Below, piece by piece: positions 206 to 18,622 of a stretch of 64,000 nt of DNA. The DNA comes from Burkholderiales bacterium (GTDB lineage Bacteria; Pseudomonadota; Gammaproteobacteria; Burkholderiales; Casimicrobiaceae). Position 1 is the first letter of the stretch; the number at the start of each line of letters is the position of its first letter. Both the position numbers and the translations under genes were made by a program. The stretch is taken from NCBI GenBank assembly GCA_905339295.1, contig CAJPFI010000044.1:1-64000 (forward strand), given 5' to 3'. Under the pieces are notes generated by a model. It was given only the letters and a program-made list of their open reading frames with translations, ran no database searches and was not told the origin of the DNA.

Positions 206-2824
206 GTGCTGCGGCCGCTCGAAGAACTAAAGAAGTCCGCCGCACAATCGCGCGATGTATCCGATGGCGAGTACTTCTTTGCGCTTATGTATTGGGCAGA
301 AGCGCTGCTCAAATCGGTCGTTCTGGCACTTCATGCATGCCTAGATGAAGATGCCAATCGAACCAAGTATCGAATTGCACATTCGCTCGTTCGTGCTGAT
401 AGCCTTGGACCGTGGGTTGATGCGTTAGATGAAATACTAACCGGTCCGGCCTACCGTGTTGTATGTAGCGCGGCGCAACCACTATGTCGCGAACTCAGCG
501 AGCGCGTCTCCATTGACGACTGGAGACATCAAGCTGTCGGAGCACTCCACCTAGCTGCGATAGCTGCTGATTGTGACCTCGAATCGCTCCCGGCGAAAGT
601 TGAACTCCGGCGGTGGTTCTCAATATTTGTTGTTCTCCGAAATCGCACGCGCGCTCACGGAGCAACGCGTACCGAGAGCTTTCGTAATTCAAGCGCCAAT
701 CTCCACACGGCCCTTGATCTCCTAACAAGTCACCTATCTATCTTCAGTATTCCCTGGGCTTATCTCCACCAGAATCTCTCTGGGAAGTATCGGGTCACCA
801 ACCTTTCCGATGCCGATAGCAAAGAGTTGAACGATCTCCGGCGCAAGGCTCCCGCAGTACCAGTTCCGGAGGGCGTTTACATTGTCGTCGGCTCGTTGCG
901 CCATCTGCCTCTCCTCGTATCAGATGTCGAAGCGCATGATTTCTTCTTTCCAAACGGCGCTTTCACTGGAAAACGATATGAGCTCCTGTCTTACCATTCC
1001 GATGATCGTAAGACGGGTTCAGCCACCGAGTACCTGATTCCGCCGGGGAAGTTACCAGACAGCGATACTCACGGCTTGAAGGAACTGGATGTCCTCGGCC
1101 GAACTCTGACAAATCTTCCGCCAGTCCCTGCCCCATACATACATCGTCCAACAATTCAAGACGAACTAAAACAAGTACTCCTTGACGACCGTTTTCCACT
1201 GGTCACCTTGGTTGGTCGCGGAGGAATTGGAAAGACATCGCTTGCGATTGCGGTATGTCGCGACATCGCCGGCTCCGATCGTTATCTTGCTATTCTGTGG
1301 TTTAGCGCGAGAGACATCGACCTCCTAACCGAGGGTCCCAAACTAGTTAGGCCGGCAGTACTAACCAAGGACGATATATCTAGGCAGTTTTGTGAACTCG
1401 TTGGAACCGACTCCAAAACTGGCGCTCTGCAAGCCAATCACTTCCAACAGTCGTTAGCCAGTCAAGACTTAGGTGGCCCGATACTGTATGTGTTCGATAA
1501 TTTCGAAACGGTTCGCGACCCGATAGATATTTATGAGTATCTCAAGCAGTTCATTCGTCCGCCAAACAAAGTTCTAATTACGACGCGCGCGCGCGACTTC
1601 AAAGGAGACTATGCGATCGAGGTTTCTGGGATGGAACCCACGGAAGCAGAGGAACTTCTCGCCGTGCTGGCTTCGCAATCCGGTTTGGCGGACAAGCTTT
1701 CCAGCTCTGTGCGTCACGAAATCCTTACCACCGCGGACGGGCATCCGTACATCCTGAAGATTCTCGTAGGTGAATTTGCAATCGATCCAAAGCGGAAGGA
1801 ATTGAAGCGTGTCGTTGCAAGTAGGGATCAAGTCCTAGACGCATTGTTCGAGCGATCGTTTGCGGCGCTCTCGGAAGGCGCCCGCAGATTGTTTCTCACT
1901 GTGGGAGTTTGGCAGACCGCCATCTCTGAGTTGGTACTAGAAGCTGTGCTCATATCGAGATCTGCAGAACATTTCGACGTGCAACGTGCCATTGAGGAGC
2001 TTCGACGAAGCAGCCTGCTGGAGCAAACGCGATCGGAGACCGGCGAGTACTTCGTTTCCGCACCTCTTGCTGCCGCTCTGTTTGCGAAGACCAAGCTTTC
2101 CGTTAGCCCCCTTGAGCCAATTGTGCGAGCCGATTTGAACGTCCTACATCTTTTCGGCCCCGTCAACAAATCTGAGATTGCGCGTGGTTACAAACCCAAG
2201 CTTCGTAGATTCTTCACCGAGATAGGGCGTCGTAGTGGCGAGGATCCTGATTTCTTGAATGACCGTATGCGGTCAATGCTTGAGATGTTAGGGGCCAGAT
2301 TCCCGGAAGTTTGGCGATTCCTGGCTCAACTCAAGATTGAACAGAATGCCTTGTACGACGCAACCCACTATCTAACAACGTATCTTCAATCTGCAGATCT
2401 CGATATCGCGTCTCAAATTGAAGGATGGAAGACGCTTGCGACTACATATCGACGTCTTGGGGATTTGCCTGCATATCTGCACGCTCTCGCGAAGCTTGCA
2501 CAGTTTCCTGGCATTCCGCTGTCAGAACTCAGCACCATTGCGAGCGATGTAAATCACATATGTCAAGACGACAAGATTCGCGCGCTGCCGGAAGAGCGAC
2601 AGATGTTGGTTGAATCTGTCGCTGAACACTTTTCGCGACAGCTTAGGACAAGCTCGCACGCTGACGGCCGCGATGTTTCCCGATTGGCCTGGTTACTGTT
2701 GCACCTGCGCAAGGAAGAGGACGCGGCTAAGGTCATTCACGATGGTCTTTTGAAAGAACCCGAGAATCACTATCTGCGCAACCTCGCAGCCAAGGATTTT
2801 TATCTTAGACGCTATACGGAATAA
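206..2824 (+). CDS. HEPN-STAND ATPase with helical repeat C-terminus, putative defence protein
   Basis: An 872-residue protein with GTG start (no ATG until codon 28; no clear Shine-Dalgarno). Seen directly: an N-terminal helical region with RNRTRAH at 145-151, matching the R-N-x4-H signature of HEPN ribonucleases; a P-loop GRGGIGKT at 337-344; a Walker B-like ILYVFDNFE at 426-434; VLITTR at 456-461, as in NB-ARC/STAND ATPases; and a long helical C-terminal half with TPR-like stretches. STAND proteins usually sense a ligand through the C-terminal repeats and release an effector after oligomerising. I infer an RNA-cutting effector and an anti-phage or stress role. The gene is AT-richer than its neighbours, with TTA, ATA and AGG codons, and sits just after nrdB, suggesting transfer. 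No partner gene follows. Family assignment is good; function is inferred. Confidence 0.75.
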   Translation: MLRPLEELKKSAAQSRDVSDGEYFFALMYWAEALLKSVVLALHACLDEDANRTKYRIAHSLVRADSLGPWVDALDEILTGPAYRVVCSAAQPLCRELSERVSIDDWRHQAVGALHLAAIAADCDLESLPAKVELRRWFSIFVVLRNRTRAHGATRTESFRNSSANLHTALDLLTSHLSIFSIPWAYLHQNLSGKYRVTNLSDADSKELNDLRRKAPAVPVPEGVYIVVGSLRHLPLLVSDVEAHDFFFPNGAFTGKRYELLSYHSDDRKTGSATEYLIPPGKLPDSDTHGLKELDVLGRTLTNLPPVPAPYIHRPTIQDELKQVLLDDRFPLVTLVGRGGIGKTSLAIAVCRDIAGSDRYLAILWFSARDIDLLTEGPKLVRPAVLTKDDISRQFCELVGTDSKTGALQANHFQQSLASQDLGGPILYVFDNFETVRDPIDIYEYLKQFIRPPNKVLITTRARDFKGDYAIEVSGMEPTEAEELLAVLASQSGLADKLSSSVRHEILTTADGHPYILKILVGEFAIDPKRKELKRVVASRDQVLDALFERSFAALSEGARRLFLTVGVWQTAISELVLEAVLISRSAEHFDVQRAIEELRRSSLLEQTRSETGEYFVSAPLAAALFAKTKLSVSPLEPIVRADLNVLHLFGPVNKSEIARGYKPKLRRFFTEIGRRSGEDPDFLNDRMRSMLEMLGARFPEVWRFLAQLKIEQNALYDATHYLTTYLQSADLDIASQIEGWKTLATTYRRLGDLPAYLHALAKLAQFPGIPLSELSTIASDVNHICQDDKIRALPEERQMLVESVAEHFSRQLRTSSHADGRDVSRLAWLLLHLRKEEDAAKVIHDGLLKEPENHYLRNLAAKDFYLRRYTE

Positions 2825-3164
2825 TTTTGGTTGCAGTATGGGCAAATGCGCCGGCCCCATGAGTGAGGGGTAACCGCGACCGGCAGCAAGCCTTACATTG
2901 AAAAATGCATAGAGTCGGCTCCGCAGTTATCGGCGGATAGCGTGGAAGCTCCTGTCGCCAACCGTTGAGTGATGCCCGAAGTTCGTCGGGGCCAACTCAG
3001 AACTTTGGGTCGATGCGCGCGTCGCGCCGCACCCGTCGCTCGCTACACTTGGCTAAGTAGGGAGTCGGGTATGCCAAATGGCGCATATGCGCATCGGAAT
3101 GAACCGTCCCCGTTGGTCGACGCCGAGCGAGCTTGCGAACGGTTGGATGCCCCCAAGACGAATG
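2825..3164. other. Intergenic stretch after the STAND gene
   Basis: About 340 bases with no convincing gene. The first part keeps the lower GC of the upstream gene, then composition changes back to the GC-rich host type before the repeat element. Short open frames are present but have neither a ribosome binding site nor family-like sequence. It may mark the right-hand junction of the acquired segment. Confidence 0.5.
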
Positions 3165-3270
3165 AATGGGGTCAGAGCCGTAACAATCGCGCTGGCGGCG
3201 GGCCTATAGGCGCGGCCGCCCGCGCGAGTTCATGGCGGCACCGTACGCGACTGTTACGGCTCTGACCCCA
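3165..3270. repeat. REPIN-like element A (inverted repeat pair)
   Basis: The left end (3165-3188) carries GGGGTCAGAGCCGTAACA and the right end (3249-3270) carries the reverse complement, about 60 bases apart. The interior resembles the reverse complement of the interior of the element at 9039-9141, sharing CGCTGGCGGCGG, GCGGCC, CCCGCG and AGTTCATG blocks in the same order. It is therefore a mobile unit of about 105 bases rather than two chance repeats. The right end overlaps the 3' end of the LysR gene. The family belongs with the RAYT transposase at 11617-12294. Confidence 0.75.
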
Positions 3271-4180
3271 CTACCCACGTCCCCTTCGCCACGAGCGCCG
3301 CGGCGACCGAGCTGATGAGGGCCGCCACCGCCCGCGTGGCGGTCGTGATCGAGTGCTTCGGCCCCGTCGTCATGACGAGCACGCGCGAGATGGTCGGATC
3401 CTTGATCGGCGCCGCCTGCAGGCGACCCATGCCGACGTCGTTCGCCACCGAGTCGTAGCCTGAGATCGTGTAGCCGCAGCCGGCGACCACAGTCTCCTTG
3501 ATTGCCAGCAGCGAATCGATCTCGCACAGCAGGTTGAGCTTGAAGCCGGCGTCGTTGCAGGCGTCCTCGACCATGGTCCGCACCGAGTGCGGCCTGCACG
3601 GCAGCATGATCGCGCAGCGCGAGAGCTGGGCGAACGGGACCGCGCGCTTCGCGGTCAACGGGTCGCCGGCCGGACCGACCAGGTAGAGGCTCGACCGGGC
3701 GAGCGGGATCGCCCCTTTCTTCACGCTGTCCTCGCGGGCGAAGACCAGTCCGATGTCGATCCGCCGCGCGGCCAGCCACTCTTCGACGCCGCCGGAGAGA
3801 CCCTCGACGAAGCGCAGCTGCAGTTCCGGATAGCGCTCGCGCGCGAGCTGGACCAGCGGTCCCACGAGGCGCGCCGCGATCGAGCCGGGCAGCCCGATCG
3901 CGACGGTCCCGGACAGCTTCCCCCGCAGCGCCTTGGCCTCGTTGGTGAACCGTGTCACCTCGAGCGTCGCGCGCTGCGCGAGCGGCGCGAGCCGCCGTCC
4001 GAACTCCGTGGCGTGCATGCCGCGTCCGGTCCGGTGGAACAGCCGGTGCCCGAGCTCCTGCTCGAGCTCCTGGATGCCGCGGCTCAGCATCGAATGCGAC
4101 ACCTGCAGCTGCAGCGCGGCCTTGCTGAGGCTGCCGGTCTCGGCGACGCAAAGGAACCAGGCGAGGCGCTTGACGTCCAT
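3254..4180 (-). CDS. LysR-family transcriptional regulator
   Basis: A 308-residue LysR-type regulator: winged helix-turn-helix in residues 1-60 (AALQLQVSHSMLSRGIQELE is the recognition region), then a periplasmic-binding-protein-like effector domain. Length is normal. It is transcribed away from the cupin/TTT transporter operon that starts 300 bases away, the usual arrangement for a LysR protein controlling its neighbour, so it likely senses the transported carboxylate or a product. The last residues, VVGSEP, and the TAA stop are encoded by the right arm of the repeat at 3249-3270, so the original C-terminus has been replaced by insertion. The ligand is unknown. Confidence 0.85.
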   Translation of the reverse strand: MDVKRLAWFLCVAETGSLSKAALQLQVSHSMLSRGIQELEQELGHRLFHRTGRGMHATEFGRRLAPLAQRATLEVTRFTNEAKALRGKLSGTVAIGLPGSIAARLVGPLVQLARERYPELQLRFVEGLSGGVEEWLAARRIDIGLVFAREDSVKKGAIPLARSSLYLVGPAGDPLTAKRAVPFAQLSRCAIMLPCRPHSVRTMVEDACNDAGFKLNLLCEIDSLLAIKETVVAGCGYTISGYDSVANDVGMGRLQAAPIKDPTISRVLVMTTGPKHSITTATRAVAALISSVAAALVAKGTWVVGSEP

Positions 4181-4192
4181 CGGAGCCTTGCA

Positions 4193-4209
4193 TTCTACGC
4201 AAAGCAGAA
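4193..4209. promoter_or_regulatory. Possible LysR operator, TTCT-N9-AGAA
   Basis: An interrupted palindrome, TTCT then nine bases then AGAA, lies 13 bases upstream of the LysR start codon in the divergent region facing the cupin operon. It fits the general T-N11-A layout of LysR boxes. Support is by position and symmetry only; short palindromes of this size can occur by chance. Confidence 0.3.
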
Positions 4210-4370
4210 ATCCGGGTTCTCACCTAGGTCAAGTCTCGCGGGATGCTTATGCTCGTCGGAGCGAACGGGCACGGCAGCGACGAGGCCCTCGCCGCAGGAG
4301 GATGCGCCGCCCCGCGCGCCACGCGCCGGCCGCCGCGACCCTCCGCGCAGGAGGAGGCGATCGCGACCCG

Positions 4371-4403
4371 GCCCGAGGCACCGGCGCGCACGATGCCTCG
4401 GGC
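4371..4403. promoter_or_regulatory. 10-bp perfect inverted repeat in the cupin operon leader
   Basis: GCCCGAGGCA at 4371-4380 is followed after 13 bases by its perfect complement TGCCTCGGGC at 4394-4403. It ends 75 bases before the cupin start codon. It could form a stable RNA hairpin in the leader or be an operator. No run of T follows, so it is not a simple terminator. Confidence 0.4.
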
Positions 4404-4477
4404 CGATCGCGGCGGCGACCCCCCGCGCGAAAGACCTCGCCGCGAATCGCCCCCGAACACCCACAGCAGGAGGAGCC

Positions 4478-4930
4478 ATGTCACGACTGCCGGTTTACAG
4501 GATCGCCGACATCCCGCGCGAGAAACAGTTGCACGAAGGGCGCATGACGCGCTATTCGATACGCACGAAGAACGCGCAGATCGTGTTCGCCGACATCGTG
4601 CCGCAGCCGATGGGGAGCCAGCGCTACCATCGCAAGCCGCACGACCATCCGCACGACATGCTGCTCATCGTCGTCAAAGGGACGATGCGCATGGAGATCG
4701 CCGGCGAGGAATACGACATCGGCCCCAACGAGGTCATGGACGTCCCGGCCTTCGCGATGCACCGCGGCTACGCGCTCGGCTCGGCGCCCGTCTCGCTGAT
4801 CGAGATCTTCTCGCCGGTGCGCCACGACTACATCCACCTGGTGGCGTGGCAGGAGGAGGCGTTCGGCGACGACGGCGTTCCCTGGATCAGGAAAGAGCAC
4901 AATTCCTGGAACCCGCCGCCCGGGCCGTGA
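4478..4930 (+). CDS. Small cupin-domain protein
   Basis: A 150-residue single-domain cupin. The metal-binding type motif is visible as HRKPHDHPHDMLL, followed by the strand KGTMRMEIAGEEYDIGPNEV and a second histidine in FAMHRGY. The start is set by a strong ribosome binding site, AGGAGGAG, at 4468-4475. It is the first gene of a cluster with a TTT receptor and TctB/TctA membrane proteins. Cupins in this position are often small dioxygenases, isomerases or sensors acting on the transported acid, but the substrate is unknown. The C-terminus is tryptophan- and proline-rich (WIRKEHNSWNPPPGP). Confidence 0.75.
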   Translation: MSRLPVYRIADIPREKQLHEGRMTRYSIRTKNAQIVFADIVPQPMGSQRYHRKPHDHPHDMLLIVVKGTMRMEIAGEEYDIGPNEVMDVPAFAMHRGYALGSAPVSLIEIFSPVRHDYIHLVAWQEEAFGDDGVPWIRKEHNSWNPPPGP

Positions 4931-5059
4931 CCACGGCAACGGAGGCGAACCGCAATGGAGCCCCCCGCGTGCCGGACGAGGCGGAAGCGCCGTCCTGCAG
5001 TCCGGATCGAGGGGATGGGGTCGTCGAAGCCGACCCGCTGTGCCAAACGGGAAAATGAC

Positions 5060-6025
5060 ATGATCGGACACCTCGGTCGATGGATCGTCGCAGCATGCTT
5101 CGCCGTCGCGGCCGTCGCCGCGCAGGCGCAGCCCTATCCCAACCAGAGCATCAAGCTGATCGTTCCGTACGGCCCCGGACAGGCGACGGACGTCATGTGT
5201 CGCGTGTTCGCGGAGCAGTTGAAGGTCGTGCTCAAGCAGAACATCGTGATCGAGAACCGCGTCGGTGCGGCGAGCAACCTCGGCGCCGCGGAAGCCGCCA
5301 AGGCCGCTCCCGACGGCTACACGCTCCTGTGCACGGGCAACGCCACGCACGTCGCGAATCCGCTGCTGTACTCGTCGATGGGCTTCGATCCCGACAAGGA
5401 CCTCCTGCCCATCACCGCGGTCGCGGCCACCGGCTACGTGATGGCCGTGGGGCCCAAGCTCAAGGGCAAGACCGTCACCGAGGTCGTCGCGATGGCGAAG
5501 TCGGCGTCGCCGCCGCTCAAGATGGGACTGGCGAGCACGACGTCGCGGGTCCTGTTCGAGATGCTCCGGCAGGCCGCGAACGTGCAGCTGACCAACGTGC
5601 CGTACATGGCCGGCAACCGCGACCTCTTCCCCGACCTGATGCGCGGCGACACCGACATGGTCATCGAGGCGATGCCCTCGGCGATGGGCTCGGTGACCGG
5701 CGGAACGGTGACGCCGATCGCGGTCACGCTGCCCGAGCGCTCTCCGCTCCTGCCCAACGTGCCGACGTTCAAGGAAGTGGGGCTCGACGTGCAGCTCGTC
5801 GGCTGGAACGCGTTCTACGCGCCGAAGGGAACGTCGCCGGAAATCATCGCGACGCTGAATCGCGCGGCGCTCGAGGCGCTCAGGCATCCCGACGTCGCGA
5901 AGCGCCTCGAGGCCATCGCCTGCGTGCCGAATCCGACCTCGCCGGAACAGCTCGCGAAGATGATCGCCGACGACCGCGCGAAGTGGAAGCCGATCGTCGA
6001 GGAGTACAAGCTGCGGGTGAACTAG
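5060..6025 (+). CDS. tctC: Tripartite tricarboxylate transporter solute receptor (TctC/Bug family)
   Basis: A 321-residue periplasmic binding protein with a signal peptide (residues 1-23, ending AAQAQ) and the family opening YPNQSIKLIVPYGPGQATD. GYTLLCTG and the C-terminal LAKMIADDRAKWKPIV region are typical of Bug receptors. It would deliver a carboxylate to the TctAB membrane complex. The start at 5060 was chosen because the signal peptide begins there; upstream in-frame sequence does not look like protein. It is followed by tctB and tctA, so this is the complete transporter of the window, unlike the receptors at 13317 and 25892. Cys residues in DVMCRVF and LLCTG are slightly unusual. Confidence 0.85.
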   Translation: MIGHLGRWIVAACFAVAAVAAQAQPYPNQSIKLIVPYGPGQATDVMCRVFAEQLKVVLKQNIVIENRVGAASNLGAAEAAKAAPDGYTLLCTGNATHVANPLLYSSMGFDPDKDLLPITAVAATGYVMAVGPKLKGKTVTEVVAMAKSASPPLKMGLASTTSRVLFEMLRQAANVQLTNVPYMAGNRDLFPDLMRGDTDMVIEAMPSAMGSVTGGTVTPIAVTLPERSPLLPNVPTFKEVGLDVQLVGWNAFYAPKGTSPEIIATLNRAALEALRHPDVAKRLEAIACVPNPTSPEQLAKMIADDRAKWKPIVEEYKLRVN

Positions 6026-6118
6026 GCGTCGCATGCCGCCGGCGCGCGCCGGGAGGAGACCGGGCGGCGCGCGTCTGGCGCGTCGCCCTCCCGGCTTCGC
6101 GGATCCGCAGGGAACGAG

Positions 6119-6592
6119 ATGACTCGGCCACGGGGCTTGCGCGCGCTCGCGATCCGCAATCCGCAGGATTTCTACGGCGGGCTGGTCCTGGTGGCGTTCG
6201 CCGCCATCGCGTTCTGGGCGACGCGCGACCTGCCCGGCTCGCGCGGCCTGACGTTCGGCGCGGGGACCGCGCCGCGCCTGTTCGCCGGATTGCTCGCGTT
6301 CGTGGGCGCCATCGTCACGATCCTCGGCGTCGTGACGACGGGCCCGTCCGTGGGTCGCTACCCGATCCGCGGCCCGCTGCTGATCTTCGCGTCCGTCCTG
6401 GTGTTCGCGGGCACGGTGAAGGCCGTCGGGCTCGTCGTCGCGACCTTCGTCACCGTGCTGGTCGCGAGCGCGGCGAGCCGCGAGACGCGGTGGCGCGAGG
6501 CGATCCCGTGGGCGGCGGCGCTGAGTGTCTTCTGCGCACTGCTGTTCTCGTACGCGCTGGGCCTGCCGTTGCCGCTCTGGCCGAAGCTGTAG
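6119..6592 (+). CDS. tctB: TctB-family small membrane subunit of TTT transporter
   Basis: A 157-residue protein with four hydrophobic segments (about residues 20-35, 55-75, 85-118 and 130-150), the size and layout of TctB. The N-terminal DFYGGLVLVAFAAIAFWATRD matches the family's first segment. TctB works with TctA in sodium- or proton-coupled uptake in the inner membrane. It lies between the receptor and the large permease, nine bases before tctA, so the three genes form one operon. TctB sequences are poorly conserved, but context makes the call safe. Confidence 0.8.
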   Translation: MTRPRGLRALAIRNPQDFYGGLVLVAFAAIAFWATRDLPGSRGLTFGAGTAPRLFAGLLAFVGAIVTILGVVTTGPSVGRYPIRGPLLIFASVLVFAGTVKAVGLVVATFVTVLVASAASRETRWREAIPWAAALSVFCALLFSYALGLPLPLWPKL

Positions 6593-11462: not shown

Positions 11463-12391
11463 AATGGGGTCAGAGCCGTAACAATCGAGGCAAGAGACGG
11501 CGCGGCTTCGACCCGAAAAGTGACGGTGACCGCCTTTTGCCGGCGACGCTGCATCATCCGATCGTCCGATGGTCGCTGACCGCATCGCGCGGGACCATGG
11601 GCGCAAGGAGCGCCGCATGCCGCGCAGGCCACGATTCCCGCTCACCGGTTACCCGCTGCACATCGTACAGCGGGGCAACGACCGCCAGCCATGCTTCTTC
11701 TGCGAGGCGGATTTCCGCACCTACCTCGAAGCTCTGGGCGATGCCGCGACGCACTACGGCGTCCGGGTCCACGCCTACGTGCTGATGACCAACCATGTGC
11801 ACCTGCTGGCCACGCCGCTTGAGGCCGGCGCGGTATCGCGCACGATGCAGTCGGTCGGCGCGCGCTACGTCGGCTATGTCAATGCGACCCACGGCCGGAC
11901 AGGGACGCTCTGGGAAGGGCGCTACCGGGCGTGCCTGGTCGGCGAGGATGCATACGTTCTCGCGGCATGCCGTTACATCGACCTCAATCCGGTCCGCGCG
12001 CGGATGGTCTCGCATCCGGTCGCATGGCGGTGGAGCAGCTACGGCGCCCTTTCGGGCCTGCGGCGCGATGCGCTGGTGTCACCGCACCCGACGCTCTCCT
12101 TGCTCGGCGACGCGCCCGGTCCGGGCTATGCGCAATGGTGCGGCATGCCGTCGGACGAGGCGGAGCTGACCGCGCTGCGTGCCGCCACGGCCGGCGAACT
12201 CGCGTTCGGATCCGATGCGTTCAAGACCCGGATCGAGGACACGACGGATCGTGCGACGCGGCCCCGTCGTTCCGCTCCCGCTGCGGCCGCCTAGCGCACA
12301 CGGACAACGGCCCGCCCGTTGCAGCCGCCGCAGGCACAGAGTCCGTTACGAAGGGAGCCGGTTCGACGCAATTGTTACGGCTCTGACCCCA
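11463..12391. mobile_element. RAYT element: transposase gene bounded by an inverted pair of its repeats
   Basis: A forward arm at 11463-11486 and a reverse arm at 12371-12391 face each other across the tyrosine transposase gene. The two arms are the same sequence as those of the REPIN-like elements, and the order (forward left, reverse right) is the same as in every paired copy here. This is the arrangement expected for the autonomous source of the repeat family. Confidence 0.75.
11617..12294 (+). CDS. REP-associated tyrosine transposase (RAYT, IS200/IS605-like Y1 fold)
   Basis: A 225-residue transposase starting at the ATG with AAGGAG six bases upstream (11605-11610). The HUH metal site is seen as MTNHVHLL with His60 and His62, and the family blocks RYVGYVNATHGRTGTLWEGR and CRYIDLNPVRARMV follow; Tyr120 in the last block is the probable catalytic tyrosine. 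The N-terminal GYPLHIVQRGNDRQPCFF is typical of RAYTs. These enzymes cut single-stranded repeat hairpins and are usually single-copy chromosomal genes. The frame is intact and all key residues are present, so it may be active. Confidence 0.92.
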   Translation: MPRRPRFPLTGYPLHIVQRGNDRQPCFFCEADFRTYLEALGDAATHYGVRVHAYVLMTNHVHLLATPLEAGAVSRTMQSVGARYVGYVNATHGRTGTLWEGRYRACLVGEDAYVLAACRYIDLNPVRARMVSHPVAWRWSSYGALSGLRRDALVSPHPTLSLLGDAPGPGYAQWCGMPSDEAELTALRAATAGELAFGSDAFKTRIEDTTDRATRPRRSAPAAAA

Positions 12392-14309: not shown

Positions 14310-14487
14310 GGCGTCGGGCTGAAGCCCAACCCACGAGCGCGCGACGAACCAGGGCGCCATGGCGTCGTGCTGAAGCCCGACCCACGAATGCGCGGCGGAC
14401 CGCGACGCCACGGCGTCGGGCTGAAGACCGACACACGAATGCGCGGCGGACCAAGACGCCACGGCGTCGGGCTGGAACCCGACCCAT
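14310..14487. repeat. 51-bp tandem repeat, about 3.5 copies, with palindromic core
   Basis: Units begin at 14310, 14361, 14412 and 14463, exactly 51 bases apart. Each opens with a version of GTCGGGCTGAAGCCCGAC, which can fold into a hairpin, followed by CCAC and a less conserved stretch containing GCGCGGCGGAC. The same palindrome in the other orientation occurs at 33315-33413. It fills the gap between the TTT receptor and the ligase gene and ends six bases before the ligase ATG. Fifty-one is a multiple of three, but the region is not preceded by a start that would suggest translation. Confidence 0.85.
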
Positions 14488-14493
14488 GACACG

Positions 14494-15996
14494 ATGAACC
14501 GGAACGCCCACGCGCCGGCCGGAACCGTCGTCGATCGCCTGCACCGTCACGCGCGCGAGCGCCCCGATGCCCCGGCCATCGTCGCCGAAGGCCGGACCGT
14601 GACGTATCGCGAGTTCCAGGCGCTGGTCGGGGGGTGCGCGGACTGGCTGCGGACGCAAGGCATCGAGGGTGGCGAATGCGTCGGCGTGACGATCGCCGAC
14701 GACCTGACGCATATCGTCGTCGCCCTCGGCCTTGCCTCGCTCGGCGCCGCGCACGTCACGCTTGCGAGCCACGATCCGGAACGCGCGCGGTCGCGACTTG
14801 CCGCACGCGTCGGCGCGCGGCGCGTCGTTGCCGCGCTCGCCTCGCACCGCCTGCCGGGGCTCGCGTTCGTGCCGATCGGCCCCGGCGCGTTGGCGACATG
14901 GGCGGGCCGGCGCGCGGGTCCGCTGAGGGTCCCCGACGCGTCGGAGCGGCTCACGTTTTTCTCGACGTCCGGCACGACGGGCGAGGCGAAGATCATTCCC
15001 GTGACGCACGGTCAGATCGCGCTGCAGGCGGCGCGCGCGCACGTGGGTCGTGCGTTGCCGTTGTCGTCGATCGAGCACGGCTACGCCAAGCGCCAGTTCC
15101 TCTATGCCGTGCTGGAGGGAGCGACGGTGGCGAGTCGCGGGACCCTCGGCACGCCCGTCGCGCACCTGTGCGCGGCACTGGGGATCGACGTCGTGACGTG
15201 CATGACCATGCAGGCGCAGGAGCTGATCGCAGACGCCGCGCGGTCCGGCAGGCTGCCGGCGGCGACCGTGCTGCGGCCAAGCGGTTCGCGCGGCTCGGCG
15301 CAGTTTCGGCGCGATCTGCTGGCCCACGTCTGCGATGCGATCGAGGTCACCTACTCGATGCAGGAGTGCGGGTCGGTCGCCTGCACCACCGAGCGCAGCG
15401 AGGCTGAAGCGACGGAGGCGGTCGGCCGGCCGCATGCCGGTGTCCGCGTCGAGATCGTCGACGAGCGCGGGACGCCGTTGCCGCAGGGTCAGGTGGGCGA
15501 GATCCGCGTGCGCGCGCCCGGCATGGCGTCGGGCTATCTCGACGACGAGCACGCCACCGCGCGGCATTTCCGCGACGGATGGTTCCATCCCGGCGATCTC
15601 GGCTCCTTCACGCGCGAGGGCGCGCTGATCGTGCACGGCCGCGCCGACGACGTCATGATCCTCAACGGCATCAAGATCGCGCCCGCGGAGATCGAGCGTG
15701 TCCTCGAACAGCATCCCGCCGTCAGGGCGGTCGCGGCATTCCCGCTGCGCTCGCCCGTGCATGGCGAGGTGCCGGTGGCGGCGGTCGAACTGGCGGAGGG
15801 GGCCCGGGCAAGCGAGCAGGAACTGCGGACATTCGCGCGCCAGGCGCTTGGGCTGCGTGCGCCGCGTCGCGTCATGATCGTGACGGCGCTGCCGTCCAAT
15901 CTCCAGGGCAAGGTCGACAGGCAGCGTCTTGCCGAATGGGGTCAGAGCCGTAACATTCGGCCCGGGCCAGTGAAGCCGGATCCGTCGTTGCCGTAA
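14494..15996 (+). CDS. AMP-forming acyl/aryl-CoA ligase (ANL superfamily)
   Basis: A 500-residue adenylating enzyme. Core motifs are in order: phosphate loop FFSTSGTTGEAK (about 154-165), YSMQECGS (A5-like), GWFHPGDLGSF (A7), GRADDVMILNGIKIAPAEIE (A8) and GKVDR with the adenylation lysine near the end (A10). It would activate an organic acid as its AMP derivative and pass it to CoA or a carrier; the acid cannot be named. The repeat arm at 15935 enters the frame right after RQRLAE, so about 20 C-terminal residues (WGQSRNI onward) are repeat-derived and the native stop has been lost. Confidence 0.85.
   Translation: MNRNAHAPAGTVVDRLHRHARERPDAPAIVAEGRTVTYREFQALVGGCADWLRTQGIEGGECVGVTIADDLTHIVVALGLASLGAAHVTLASHDPERARSRLAARVGARRVVAALASHRLPGLAFVPIGPGALATWAGRRAGPLRVPDASERLTFFSTSGTTGEAKIIPVTHGQIALQAARAHVGRALPLSSIEHGYAKRQFLYAVLEGATVASRGTLGTPVAHLCAALGIDVVTCMTMQAQELIADAARSGRLPAATVLRPSGSRGSAQFRRDLLAHVCDAIEVTYSMQECGSVACTTERSEAEATEAVGRPHAGVRVEIVDERGTPLPQGQVGEIRVRAPGMASGYLDDEHATARHFRDGWFHPGDLGSFTREGALIVHGRADDVMILNGIKIAPAEIERVLEQHPAVRAVAAFPLRSPVHGEVPVAAVELAEGARASEQELRTFARQALGLRAPRRVMIVTALPSNLQGKVDRQRLAEWGQSRNIRPGPVKPDPSLP
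15935..15956 (+). repeat. Solitary forward repeat arm inside the 3' end of the ligase gene
   Basis: A copy of GGGGTCAGAGCCGTAACA with a changed end (CATTCGG for CAATCG). It has no reverse partner in the following DNA and is read through in frame, adding a tail to the ligase. Confidence 0.75.
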
Positions 15997-16090
15997 GGGG
16001 AGATCCCGCGAAGTGCGGCGTCGGAGGCGACGCTCGCCCGGTGCCAGGACGCAGAGAAACGATGACGGCTCGGGCTCCGGCGCCGTGGCC

Positions 16091-16119
16091 TTGTCACCTT
16101 TTCCGGCAAGGGCGTCTAT
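16091..16119 (+). promoter_or_regulatory. Candidate ECF sigma promoter P1 (for CCAP protein and sigma gene)
   Basis: TTGTCACC at 16091-16098, 14 bases, then CGTCTAT at 16113-16119, followed by CCGG. The same two elements at the same spacing occur at 17243-17271 before the desaturase gene. TGTCAC with CGTC is a known kind of ECF promoter pair. The start codon of the CCAP gene is 46 bases downstream. A self-regulated sigma operon is the natural reading. Confidence 0.65.
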
Positions 16120-16164
16120 CCGGATGAAGGGTCGCCGCCGGCGGCCGATACCAGGAGCATCGAG

Positions 16165-16359
16165 ATGACCCCGTCCCAGAACAACGCCGGTTCCGCTTCC
16201 GCGGCCTGCTGCGCGCCTTCGGCCGCACCCTGTTGCGCGCCCGCCGCCACGGCGTGCTGCGCTCCCGGCGCGGCCACCGCCTGCTGCGCCCCCGCCAGCG
16301 TCGCGTGCTGCACGCCGGCCGGTTCGGGCGCCTCCGCCGGCTGCTGCGTGCAAGGCTGA
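16165..16359 (+). CDS. CC-repeat miniprotein (CCAP protein), function unknown
   Basis: A 64-residue protein with AGGAG seven bases before its ATG and a candidate sigma promoter upstream. It is made almost entirely of Ala, Cys, Pro, Ser, Thr and Gly, with six Cys-Cys pairs starting at residues 15, 23, 31, 40, 48 and 60; four are followed by Ala-Pro and one by Thr-Pro, giving a repeat of about eight residues. It has no signal peptide or charged residues to speak of. Paired cysteines suggest metal or electrophile binding, or redox chemistry. The sigma factor gene begins 45 bases later and itself ends in a Cys-rich tail. I know no named family for it; the role is unknown. Confidence 0.65.
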   Translation: MTPSQNNAGSASAACCAPSAAPCCAPAATACCAPGAATACCAPASVACCTPAGSGASAGCCVQG

Positions 16360-16403
16360 GCGGTTCGCGGCACACTGGCGCCCGGTGCGCCAGTGACCCG
16401 ACG

Positions 16404-17039
16404 ATGGACCCCTCGCTTCCGCAACCCGCCGATCTCACGCAGGCCTACGCGCAGTTGCGCGGCGGCCTGCTCGCGTTCCTGCGCAAGCAGGTGGGCGACG
16501 CGCAGGCGGCCGAGGACCTGCTCCACGACGTGATGGTCAAGGCGCTGGCCGCCTCCGAGGACGGCCGGCCGGCGCCGCGCAACCTGACCGGCTGGCTGTA
16601 CACCGTCGCGCACAACGCGGCGATGGACCATCACCGCCGGCGCAGGCCGACCGAGCCGTTGCCTGACGAGCTTGCCGATGCGCCGCCGGCGGCACTGGCC
16701 GAGGTCGCCGACGAGACCGAGGCCGCGATGCGGGAACTGGCGCTCTGCCTCGAGCCGCTGGCGAATCGGCTGCCCGAGACCTATCGCGACACGGTGCGCG
16801 CCGCCGAGTTCGAGGGTCGCGCGCTGCGCGACATCGCGCAGGCGCAGGGCATCAGCGTCGCCGCGGCCAAGCAGCGTGCGAGCCGCGGCCGGCGACTGCT
16901 GCACCGGGAGCTGATGCGCTGCTGCAGCGTGGCGTTGTCGCCGACCGGCCGGTTGCTCGACTACGACGCGCGAGCCGCGACACGCTGCGCCACCGATCCC
17001 GGAGCCTGCGCGGGGCCGACGGCGTGCGCGACGCGCTGA
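16404..17039 (+). CDS. sigZ: SigZ-like ECF RNA polymerase sigma factor with Cys-rich C-terminus
   Basis: A 211-residue sigma-70-family factor. Region 2 is seen in LLAFLRKQVGDAQAAEDLLH through GWLYTVAHNAAMDHHRRRR, and region 4 in LPETYRDTVRAAEFEGRALR and GISVAAAKQRASRGRRLL. The C-terminus continues LMRCCSVALSPTGRLLDYD and ends with three further cysteines, as in SigZ-type factors. No anti-sigma gene is adjacent, so the Cys tail or the CCAP protein may sense the signal. The start gives the normal length. Matching promoters before the CCAP gene and before the desaturase gene suggest it drives both; this is inferred from sequence similarity of the two sites. Confidence 0.82.
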   Translation: MDPSLPQPADLTQAYAQLRGGLLAFLRKQVGDAQAAEDLLHDVMVKALAASEDGRPAPRNLTGWLYTVAHNAAMDHHRRRRPTEPLPDELADAPPAALAEVADETEAAMRELALCLEPLANRLPETYRDTVRAAEFEGRALRDIAQAQGISVAAAKQRASRGRRLLHRELMRCCSVALSPTGRLLDYDARAATRCATDPGACAGPTACATR

Positions 17040-17242
17040 GCGCGCCGGCACCGCACCTCCGGCACGAACGAGCGACGGCGCGGCGGCCGGCAGGGCGCGG
17101 CGGTCCCGTCATGGCTGCTTCGCCGCGCGCGGAGTCGCCGCACGCGCGCTCGCACGCGCGCTCGAGCACCGCTCGTCTTCGCGGTTCCCGGTCGCCGCGC
17201 CGACGGCGGATGAGGCGGCGCGCGACCGGCGCGCAATCGGCG

Positions 17243-17271
17243 TTGTCACCTTCGGCACGTCTCGCGTCTAT
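17243..17271 (+). promoter_or_regulatory. Candidate ECF sigma promoter P2 (for desaturase gene)
   Basis: TTGTCACC at 17243-17250, 14 bases, then CGTCTAT at 17265-17271, followed by GCGG. Identity with P1 in both boxes and in spacing, while the 14 bases between differ, argues for selection on the boxes. The desaturase ATG is 33 bases downstream. Confidence 0.65.
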
Positions 17272-17303
17272 GCGGTACCACCACCGCGACCGCAAGGCGT
17301 TCC

Positions 17304-18254
17304 ATGACAGCCTCGACTTCCGCCTCCGTTTCTCCCGAACGCGCTCGCCGCGCGTCCTTCCCGGACACCCTGATCCGCTGGGGCGCGTTCCCTGCCGGGC
17401 TGGCCGTGGCGGCGCTGGCCGCGCTGGCGCTGCACCACCGGTGGATGCCTGCGATGGCCGTGCAGATGGCGGCGATGGTTGCGGCGGTGCTGCTCGTCGT
17501 GATCGCCGAGCGGCGGTTGCCGTTTCGCGCCGCCTGGCGCGTCGCCCCGTCGGCGGAACGGCGAGTCGACATCACGTCGATGGCGGTGCTGATGCTGCTC
17601 GCCGATCCGCTGTCCAAGATGACGCTCCTTCCCCTCGTGGCTTCGCTCGCGGCCACCGCCGCGGCGGCGATCGCCGAGGCCGGCGGGCGTCCGCTCGGGC
17701 TCGGACTCTTTCCCGCCGCGCTGCCGCTGCCGCTGCAACTGCTGCTGGCCGCCGCGGTGGCCGAGCTCGGGCAGTACGGGACGCACCGCGCCGCGCACGG
17801 CGTGCGCTGGATGTGGGCGATGCACGGCTTTCACCACAACCCGGCGCGCGTGAACTGGCTCAACGGATTTCGCGTCAACCCGCTCAACCTGCTGTGGCAT
17901 CAGCTTGCCGGACTGGGGCTGCTCGTCGCGCTGGGCGCGCCGGAGCCCGTGATCCAGATGCTCATCGCCTTCGGCACCGTGGTGGCCGTCTTCCAGCACG
18001 CCAACGCCGACCTTCGACTCGACGGCTGGAATCGGCTTCTCAGCACCGCCGACCTGCACCGCTGGCACCACGCGGCCGGGCACGCGCAAGGGCAATGCAA
18101 TTTCGGCGCGGTGCTGATGCTGTGGGACCACGTGTTCGGCACTTACCGCCGCCACGACGCCGCGCCGGCGGTGGTGGGCGTCGCCGGCTTCGAGCCGAAG
18201 GCGGCGGGATACCTCGCCGGGCTGCGCGAGGCGGCGCGGATGGCCTGGCGCTAG
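17304..18254 (+). CDS. Sterol desaturase / fatty-acid hydroxylase family membrane enzyme
   Basis: A 316-residue integral membrane protein with four to five hydrophobic segments (about 25-45, 50-68, 92-125, 138-155, 200-232). The diiron histidine clusters of the superfamily are present: HRAAH (161-165), HGFHH (174-178) and HRWHH (252-256), plus QHAN at 231-234. Such enzymes hydroxylate or desaturate lipids, carotenoids or sterol-like molecules using oxygen. It lies after the sigma gene with its own matching promoter, so it may be part of a membrane-lipid response controlled by that sigma factor. The substrate is unknown. Histidine spacing and length are normal. Confidence 0.82.
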   Translation: MTASTSASVSPERARRASFPDTLIRWGAFPAGLAVAALAALALHHRWMPAMAVQMAAMVAAVLLVVIAERRLPFRAAWRVAPSAERRVDITSMAVLMLLADPLSKMTLLPLVASLAATAAAAIAEAGGRPLGLGLFPAALPLPLQLLLAAAVAELGQYGTHRAAHGVRWMWAMHGFHHNPARVNWLNGFRVNPLNLLWHQLAGLGLLVALGAPEPVIQMLIAFGTVVAVFQHANADLRLDGWNRLLSTADLHRWHHAAGHAQGQCNFGAVLMLWDHVFGTYRRHDAAPAVVGVAGFEPKAAGYLAGLREAARMAWR

Positions 18255-18622
18255 GCGGCGCGCTCCACGGCATCGCGGGGCGCCCGTCACCGCGGTCGCG
18301 CAGCACGCGGCGAAGCGCTCGCTGACGCCCTGCACCGCCGTCGCGCCGTCGATCCCGCGGCGCGCCCCGTCGTTGCGCGCGGGCTGCAGCAACCCATGCA
18401 CCGCTCAGTCCTCGGCGTGGCAGGACCCGTCGGCTTCGTTGCCGGCCATGGAGGTGCGCGGCCGGAGGCGACGCTCGCGCGATGGCGATGGCGCACGCGG
18501 AGCGAAGGAGTCCTCGAACAGGTTTCCGCCGGGCCGCGATGCGGACGCCGGGATGGCGCCACGATGTCGCGCAACGCCGGCTCCCGGCAATCGGGCGTTC
18601 GGGCCCGATCCCCTGACTCACG
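18255..18622. other. Intergenic region, nothing recognised
   Basis: About 370 bases between a convergent gene pair (desaturase forward, metallo-hydrolase reverse). Open frames exist only because of high GC. No hairpin with a T-run, repeat or gene was recognised. Confidence 0.4.

Follow-up and report, generated by a model that had tools for sequence, protein, structure and literature searches.

Described ECF factors without anti-sigma partners and the factor of this locus

Among extracytoplasmic function (ECF) sigma factors, the closest described systems are CorE and CorE2 of Myxococcus xanthus (ECF238, former ECF44). According to the available parts of PMC8999054 and PMC3107203, both respond to toxic metal and occur without a linked anti-sigma gene, and the C-terminal cysteine domain and linker cysteines of CorE are needed for its activity; the excerpt of PMC8999054 also describes ECF287 and ECF288 as having cysteine-rich C-terminal extensions and as possibly CorE-like. 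Here we analyze a locus of a Burkholderiales bacterium (assembly GCA_905339295.1, family Casimicrobiaceae), located in a 64,000-nucleotide stretch of contig CAJPFI010000044.1 (positions 1 to 64,000, hereafter the window), in which a SigZ-like ECF sigma factor with several cysteines, a miniprotein made of Cys-Cys (CC) repeats and a lipid-family hydroxylase are encoded downstream of two identical pairs of promoter-like boxes. The promoter and its regulon are well supported by comparison with relatives, and the sequences suggest that the factor may by itself sense arsenic or similar poisons that bind thiols.

The sigma factor (211 amino acids, 16404..17039, + strand), recognized by family models and alignment, resembles CorE and CorE2 in having cysteines in both the linker between regions 2 and 4 and a C-terminal extension; the cysteine-rich extension is also shared with ECF287 and ECF288, compared here by the description in the PMC8999054 excerpt only. 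The apparent lack of an anti-sigma factor, pointed out in an earlier note on this window, held in a scan of six proteins encoded around this gene in the window, none of which matched an anti-sigma family (neighbors in the relatives were scanned partly), and it agrees with the absence of a linked anti-sigma factor that characterizes the former ECF44. As described in the excerpts, the CorE linker carries a CXC motif (PMC8999054), whereas the window sigma factor has the single Cys115, and the invariant C-terminal cysteines of CorE at 181, 184, 192 and 194 (PMC3107203) differ from those at 173, 174, 195, 202 and 208 here; membership in the CorE group was rejected because neither the CXC motif nor the C-terminal spacing is present. 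In addition, CorE acts on copper genes, whereas relatives of the window sigma factor are often located beside ArsI, ArsM or other ars genes.

The name SigZ-like, used in the earlier note, refers to the nearest named family. Two SigZ models are indeed the best NCBIfam matches, yet both scores fall well under the curated cut-offs (127.9 versus 212 bits for NF007215 and 122.3 versus 168.65 bits for TIGR02959), and the protein is not assigned to the SigZ equivalog. Its cysteines are Cys115 in the linker, Cys173 and Cys174 after region 4, and Cys195, Cys202 and Cys208 in the tail, with no others. Plasmid sigZ proteins of Priestia and Escherichia coli also carry Cys115 and Cys174, the Priestia protein differing in having no cysteine after Cys174. 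In an alignment and tree of 49 sigma sequences, Cys115 and Cys174 occurred together in 32 proteins and were both absent in the other 17; 24 of the 32 also had Cys173, and 29 had at least one later cysteine. The term Cys-type is used here as a working definition for SigZ-like ECF factors with a linker cysteine and a cysteine after region 4, which includes the window sigma factor (Cys115, Cys173 and Cys174). The literature searched assigned no signal to SigZ-type sigma factors. As a separate observation, one locus (L036) apparently carries two different Cys-type ECF sigma genes in tandem.

Two identical sites at promoter positions

The sequence TTGTCACC-N14-CGTCTAT occurs on the + strand at 16091-16119 and 17243-17271, and, as had been claimed for this window, boxes and spacing are exact while the spacers differ (29% identity). 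The first site consists of a -35-like box TTGTCACC at 16091..16098 and a -10-like box CGTCTAT at 16113..16119, which ends 45 base pairs (bp) before the miniprotein ATG; in the second, the corresponding boxes lie at 17243..17250 and 17265..17271, ending 32 bp before the hydroxylase ATG. Since not only the spacers but also the flanks are dissimilar (33% identity over 60 bp upstream and 35% over 80 bp downstream), tandem duplication was rejected as the origin of the pair.

The repetition by itself is not significant, because the window holds 413 gapped 8+7 pairs at this spacing with dissimilar spacers, this pair included (18 of them on the same strand within 2.5 kb), and because at least two matches with up to three mismatches appeared in 16 of 100 shuffles of the window. 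A chance origin of this gapped repeat is nevertheless highly improbable and was rejected: in 300 shuffles of each upstream region no match as good arose, and a genome-wide search, as the earlier note had proposed, found TGTCACC-N14-CGTCTAT in the whole 4.03 Mb genome only as the two exact copies at this locus. What goes beyond chance is the position before start codons, the uniqueness in the genome and the conservation in nine relatives of the sigma factor, where a box match is again found at promoter position. With up to two mismatches to TTGTCACC-N14-CGTCTAT, the genome contains five sites (the two exact ones and three at two mismatches, none at one mismatch) versus one for the reversed-pattern control, and the N15 version gives two sites at two mismatches and none better. 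Across the order, the exact motif was present in four of 300 genomes, twice in this one and once in each of three others (L037-L039). The latter were judged to be chance matches, none preceding a gene start convincingly; long open frames enclose two of them, and in the 250 bp after the third no open reading frame (ORF) of more than 47 amino acids starts.

Conservation of the promoter among relatives

Close homologs of the sigma factor are rare, at least 13 of 369 class genomes (this genome included) having a match at 1e-20; the genome searches of the class sample and of the family of L043's genome scored the best candidates only, and their counts are lower bounds. A scan of a species-genome collection identified five close relatives with 53-61% identity, namely L040 (Hydrogenophaga), L041 (a betaproteobacterial metagenome-assembled genome), L042 and L043 (both Rubrivivax) and L044 (Rhizobacter), while its two distant matches, L045 and L046, were left out. 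Matches were also obtained in at least 4 of 399 genomes of the family of L043's genome, two of them new (L086/L088 and L087/L089), and in 3 of 67 genomes of the genus of L040's genome, one of them new (L131); the L088, L089 and L131 proteins are 43-46% identical to the window sigma factor. Together with L025, these relatives (L040-L044, L088, L089 and L131) form an exclusive clade with the window sigma factor (support 0.96; FastTree, midpoint root), in which L043 is its sister (support 0.936).

The best N14 or N15 match was sought within 300 bp upstream of each sigma transcription unit and compared with 300 shuffles. The earlier note had staked its reading on relatives with this sigma factor not lacking the boxes, and a match to the boxes precedes the sigma unit in all nine clade relatives found, with zero to four mismatches and mostly of the form TTGC[CG]ACC-N15-CGTCTAT. 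With this genome included, most sites of the clade read TTG[TC][CG]ACC-N14/15-CGTCTAT. At the sigma units of this genome, L025, L040-L044, L088 and L089, at most 1% of the shuffles were as good. The L131 locus, discovered after the ideas about the motif and ArsI had taken shape, fits both, as TTGCGACC-N15-CGTCTAT precedes an ArsI-sigma unit. Deviating sites were observed in L040 (ending in CGTCTTT), L025 (starting with CTGCGACC), L043 (GTGTCACC...CGTCATA) and L089 (TTGCAACC...CGTCTAA). In L043, both the sigma site and the hydroxylase site deviate from the motif at four positions, which counts against the proposed regulon. Beyond the clade, none of nine distant Cys-type sigma factors (L026-L031, L035, L036 and L093, the last being the only plasmid sigma gene included; L032-L034 were left out) had a match with three or fewer mismatches, and the L028 match was borderline (four mismatches, P 0.07). 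A stricter pattern applied to L025-L036, L088-L090, L093 and L094 matched in L088 only, once before ArsI and once elsewhere.

The recognition segment of region 4 varies together with the -35 box. It reads [KR]QRASRG in the window sigma factor and L043, where the box is TGTCAC, and K[TS]R in the other eight relatives, where the box is TGCCAC or TGCGAC (TGCAAC in L089), and thus glutamine versus threonine or serine goes with T versus C (TGTCAC versus TGC.AC). This covariation amounts to a single evolutionary event, yet it is as expected if this protein reads this box. Both boxes are presented as predicted promoters of this sigma factor, a prediction supported by the comparison of relatives.

Predicted regulon and its variation

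The comparison likewise supports a shared promoter, a layout consistent with autoregulation and a local regulon. The earlier note had tied the sigma factor, the miniprotein and the hydroxylase into one response; this grouping gains support from the sequences, and its hydroxylase part recurs in one relative, L043, at a weaker site. The hydroxylase (316 amino acids, 17304..18254, + strand) belongs to the fatty-acid-hydroxylase/sterol-desaturase family (PF04116, 88.7 versus 31 bits), which relies on di-iron chemistry, and its nearest NCBIfam model is OlsE, an ornithine lipid hydroxylase, far under the cut-off (117.8 versus 475 bits). A close ortholog was found in one of seven relatives' genomes searched, at L043:2666-3604 (61% identity), where TTGTCACT-N14-CGTCATC lies 24 bp before the ATG (four mismatches, shuffle P 0.017). 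The hydroxylase and a cysteine miniprotein recur together in L043, whose own Cys-rich miniprotein (two CC and one CGC) is encoded between the hydroxylase and sigma genes.

In other relatives the predicted targets vary by genome. The genomes of L040-L044 contain eleven N15 sites with zero or one mismatch, none of them in L043's genome, and seven of the eleven are at the sigma locus. An eighth, in L040's genome about 280 kb from the locus, is located 69 bp before L071, a gene 73% identical to L044:4667-5392, which directly follows sigma in L044; because the distant site and the sigma-adjacent ortholog agree, the motif appears to mark real targets. This gene was labeled beta-lactamase-fold-like by eye, the L044 copy having no NCBIfam match. 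Of the remaining three sites, two fall within long open frames, and the third is not followed by a long ORF. Sites with two mismatches were about as numerous as control sites in the relatives, and such weaker sites therefore mean little. An ArsI-sigma unit is the predicted target in L025, L044, L088, L089 and L131. In L040 and L041, up to four motif-preceded units surround sigma (approximately 1676-6333), among them an ArsR/SmtB-flavoprotein unit, a unit of a cytochrome-c-like gene (labeled by eye, with no family match) and a DAPG-hydrolase-like gene, and a glutathione S-transferase (GST) unit with EthD, which in L041 also holds a glyoxalase-like gene. The site before the GST unit is strong in L041 (P 0.000) and weak in L040 (P 0.163), and the reverse applies to the cytochrome-c-like unit (P 0.000 in L040, weak at P 0.037 in L041). 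The site of the L043 flavoprotein is only 5 bp from the ATG.

Some of these targets bear on the nature of the signal. With the same promoter and regulon, the cysteines of the sigma factor might instead sense oxidation or electrophiles through a disulfide or adduct, with the arsenic genes forming one part of a broader response to thiol stress. The box matches before the GST, ArsR-flavoprotein and cytochrome-c-like units of L040 and L041 would fit such a response, and ArsI itself is described in the available part of PMC12607644 as an Fe(II)- and O2-dependent enzyme. We regard this explanation as unlikely, given that the links to ArsI and ArsM and the positions within plasmid ars operons, outlined below, are specific to arsenic.

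Association with arsenic genes

The signal was left unnamed in the earlier note, and the neighbors of the relatives point to arsenicals or soft metals. Of 12 Cys-type matches from the class sample, 7 had ArsI or ArsM within the locus as fetched, versus none of 17 ECF loci without these cysteines (Fisher P 5e-4, uncorrected for relatedness, in a split defined by the cysteines themselves). The control set consisted of the 21 loci L004-L024 less L004, L009 and L017, which proved to carry these cysteines, and L005, which has similar cysteines by eye, was dropped by the script and has ArsI about 1.8 kb away in its genome. ArsI is beside sigma in L025, L030 and L033 (121.5, 133.6 and 167.5 bits versus a cut-off of 116) and ArsM in L028, L029, L031 and L032, three of these copies scoring 285, 369 and 367.5 bits versus 263 and the L028 copy, cut by the locus end, 139.1 bits; ArsM and further ArsI genes were first named by eye and then confirmed with family models. 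Among plasmids, the sigma factors of L029 and L093 as queries matched 1368 and 1111 overlapping records, mostly of Klebsiella, of which eight were inspected, and the window sigma factor as query had no plasmid match at 1e-20. An Ideonella plasmid (L093) has the order ArsR-type helix-turn-helix (HTH)-ArsI-ArsC-ArsC-Acr3-sigma-permease-thioredoxin-ArsA (the HTH gene being annotated only as helix-turn-helix), a Klebsiella plasmid (L127) ArsR-ArsH-sigma-ArsD, an E. coli plasmid (L094) arsR2-(insertion sequence)-sigZ-arsD2, and a Citrobacter plasmid (L126) sigma-permease-thioredoxin; on a Hymenobacter plasmid, the Cys-type sigma gene is about 2 kb from ArsC/Acr3.

Several observations weigh against an arsenic signal. 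The comparison of loci carries the two reservations given with its P value, and 5 of the 12 Cys-type class matches have neither ArsI nor ArsM. Three Cys-type plasmid homologs (two of Rhodococcus and one of Priestia) have no annotated ars genes nearby. None of the six window proteins scanned is an ars gene product, no ArsI was found in this genome at 1e-12 (within the genus, 11 of the 21 further genomes have a match), and Acr3 of this genome is on another contig. ArsI is absent from L040-L042, an ArsR-type gene being present in L040 and L041 only, and partial methyltransferase matches of 34-36% in L040, L041 and L043 were taken as general methyltransferases and remained uncounted. Finally, the GST, flavoprotein and cytochrome-c-like targets of L040 and L041 would equally fit thiol or electrophile stress.

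The ArsR-family genes also raise the possibility that the sigma factor is not the sensor, being constitutive or made on demand with its cysteines holding structural zinc, and that an ArsR/SmtB-type regulator gives the signal. Such genes occur at L040 (NF033788, 64.9 versus a cut-off of 55), at L041 (an 85% ortholog) and on the plasmids, whereas no ArsR gene is among the window proteins scanned. A fixed zinc site is disfavored because the cysteine tail differs in length and number between relatives, and we consider this arrangement quite unlikely.

The miniprotein and the tails of ArsI/CadI

The miniprotein (64 amino acids, 16165..16359, + strand) was identified as an ORF encoding 12 cysteines, all of them in CC pairs; five of the six pairs belong to CC-x-P motifs. 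No Pfam or NCBIfam family matched it at E <= 0.1, bacterial metallothionein models and the VOC metalloenzyme domain included, and a search of 94 genomes, this one included, gave one other, weak match (E 8e-4). Its position directly upstream of sigma is taken by ArsI/CadI in five of the nine relatives (NF041414, cut-off 116; L044 133.9, L025 121.5, L088 116, L089 126.3 and L131 114.2 bits, the last just below the cut-off). The miniprotein shares with this family the CC-x-P motifs of many tails and the operon position, and differs in having no VOC enzyme domain. CC motifs such as GACCIP, ACCIP, GACCAP and ACCG are present in four of the five relatives' ArsI tails, and SACCAPSAAP and ACCTP occur in the ArsI encoded by the Ideonella ars operon. 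Among 19 ArsI loci fetched from related genomes, 16 tails were read by script (L110, L122 and L124 were left out); all 16 contain CC and 14 at least two. The local score of the miniprotein against the tails of L093, L088 and L131 was equaled by 1, 2 and 0 of 1000 shuffles, respectively.

Other comparisons detract from a common origin: the L025 tail has CGC only and no CC, and matches to the L044 and L107 tails are weak (52 and 98 of 1000 shuffles as good). As the miniprotein is an Ala-rich tandem repeat, its similarity to ArsI tails could also reflect convergence. The gene is a tandem repeat of 24-27 bp, and therefore both descent from an ArsI tail and convergence by repeat growth are possible.

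Other features of the locus

The sigma ORF is listed from TTG 16233, and ATG 16404 was preferred as the start. A perfect 9-bp stem-loop without a T-run (16373..16395, + strand; z-score -1.73) lies between the miniprotein and sigma genes; it may be an RNA processing or stabilizing stem, and different levels of miniprotein and sigma factor are conceivable. Neither a sigma-70 promoter nor an intrinsic terminator was found in 15900-18400. In a Pfam scan, the locus is preceded by an AMP-binding enzyme and followed, on the opposite strand, by a beta-lactamase-fold protein. The GC content of the window is 71%. Elsewhere in the window, a 51-bp tandem repeat of 3.5 copies (14310-14486) lies about 2 kb from an ORF at 11569-12294, which presumably resembles a REP-associated tyrosine transposase.

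Proposed mechanism and implications

We favor, with moderate confidence, a CorE-like ECF factor that is free of an anti-sigma partner, responds to As(III) or some other soft toxicant with affinity for thiols and drives a local regulon of two promoters. The locus would then be a self-contained stress module, in which the sigma factor would recognize TTG[TC][CG]ACC-N14/15-CGTCTAT promoters and drive its own miniprotein-sigma operon, producing positive feedback, along with the hydroxylase unit in this genome. By analogy with CorE, the sigma factor would be its own sensor. Trivalent arsenic prefers two or three thiolates, which the linker cysteine and the cysteine pair could supply; the ligand would bridge Cys115 and the pair after region 4 or the tail, switching the sigma factor on, and is most likely arsenic in its trivalent form, either inorganic or methylated, or perhaps cadmium. 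The miniprotein would serve as a thiol buffer that amounts to an ArsI/CadI tail of CC repeats minus the enzyme, and by binding the same ligand would protect the cell and end the response. As a guess, the hydroxylase may remodel or repair a membrane lipid.

An arsenic-linked SigZ-type sigma factor was not described in the titles and beginnings of abstracts searched, which cover subscription literature thinly, so that an earlier description is possible; nor is one mentioned in the available passages of PMC12607644, PMC3022917, PMC12563154, PMC4138018, PMC11647585 and PMC13055313.

For this clade, the analysis provides a small regulon with a conserved promoter and a class of ligands that can be tested; at the locus itself, a naturally occurring peptide rich in thiols and a hydroxylase of a lipid family are possible outputs of the response. 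In other bacteria, Cys-type sigma factors are linked to arsenic genes, including some plasmid ars operons. A broader proposal, which we hold tentatively and at somewhat short of even chances, is that Cys-type SigZ-like ECF factors are widespread one-component arsenical sensors, and that the ArsI/CadI tail, freed here as a peptide, serves to buffer arsenic. If this is true, As(III) or methylarsenite held by the linker cysteine and the cysteine pair or tail after region 4 would make RNA polymerase itself an arsenic responder, and the miniprotein, as a competitor for arsenic, may also dampen the activity of the sigma factor. Control of arsenic genes is usually ascribed to ArsR repressors, and an arsenical-sensing sigma factor would constitute a second, positive layer of control beside them.

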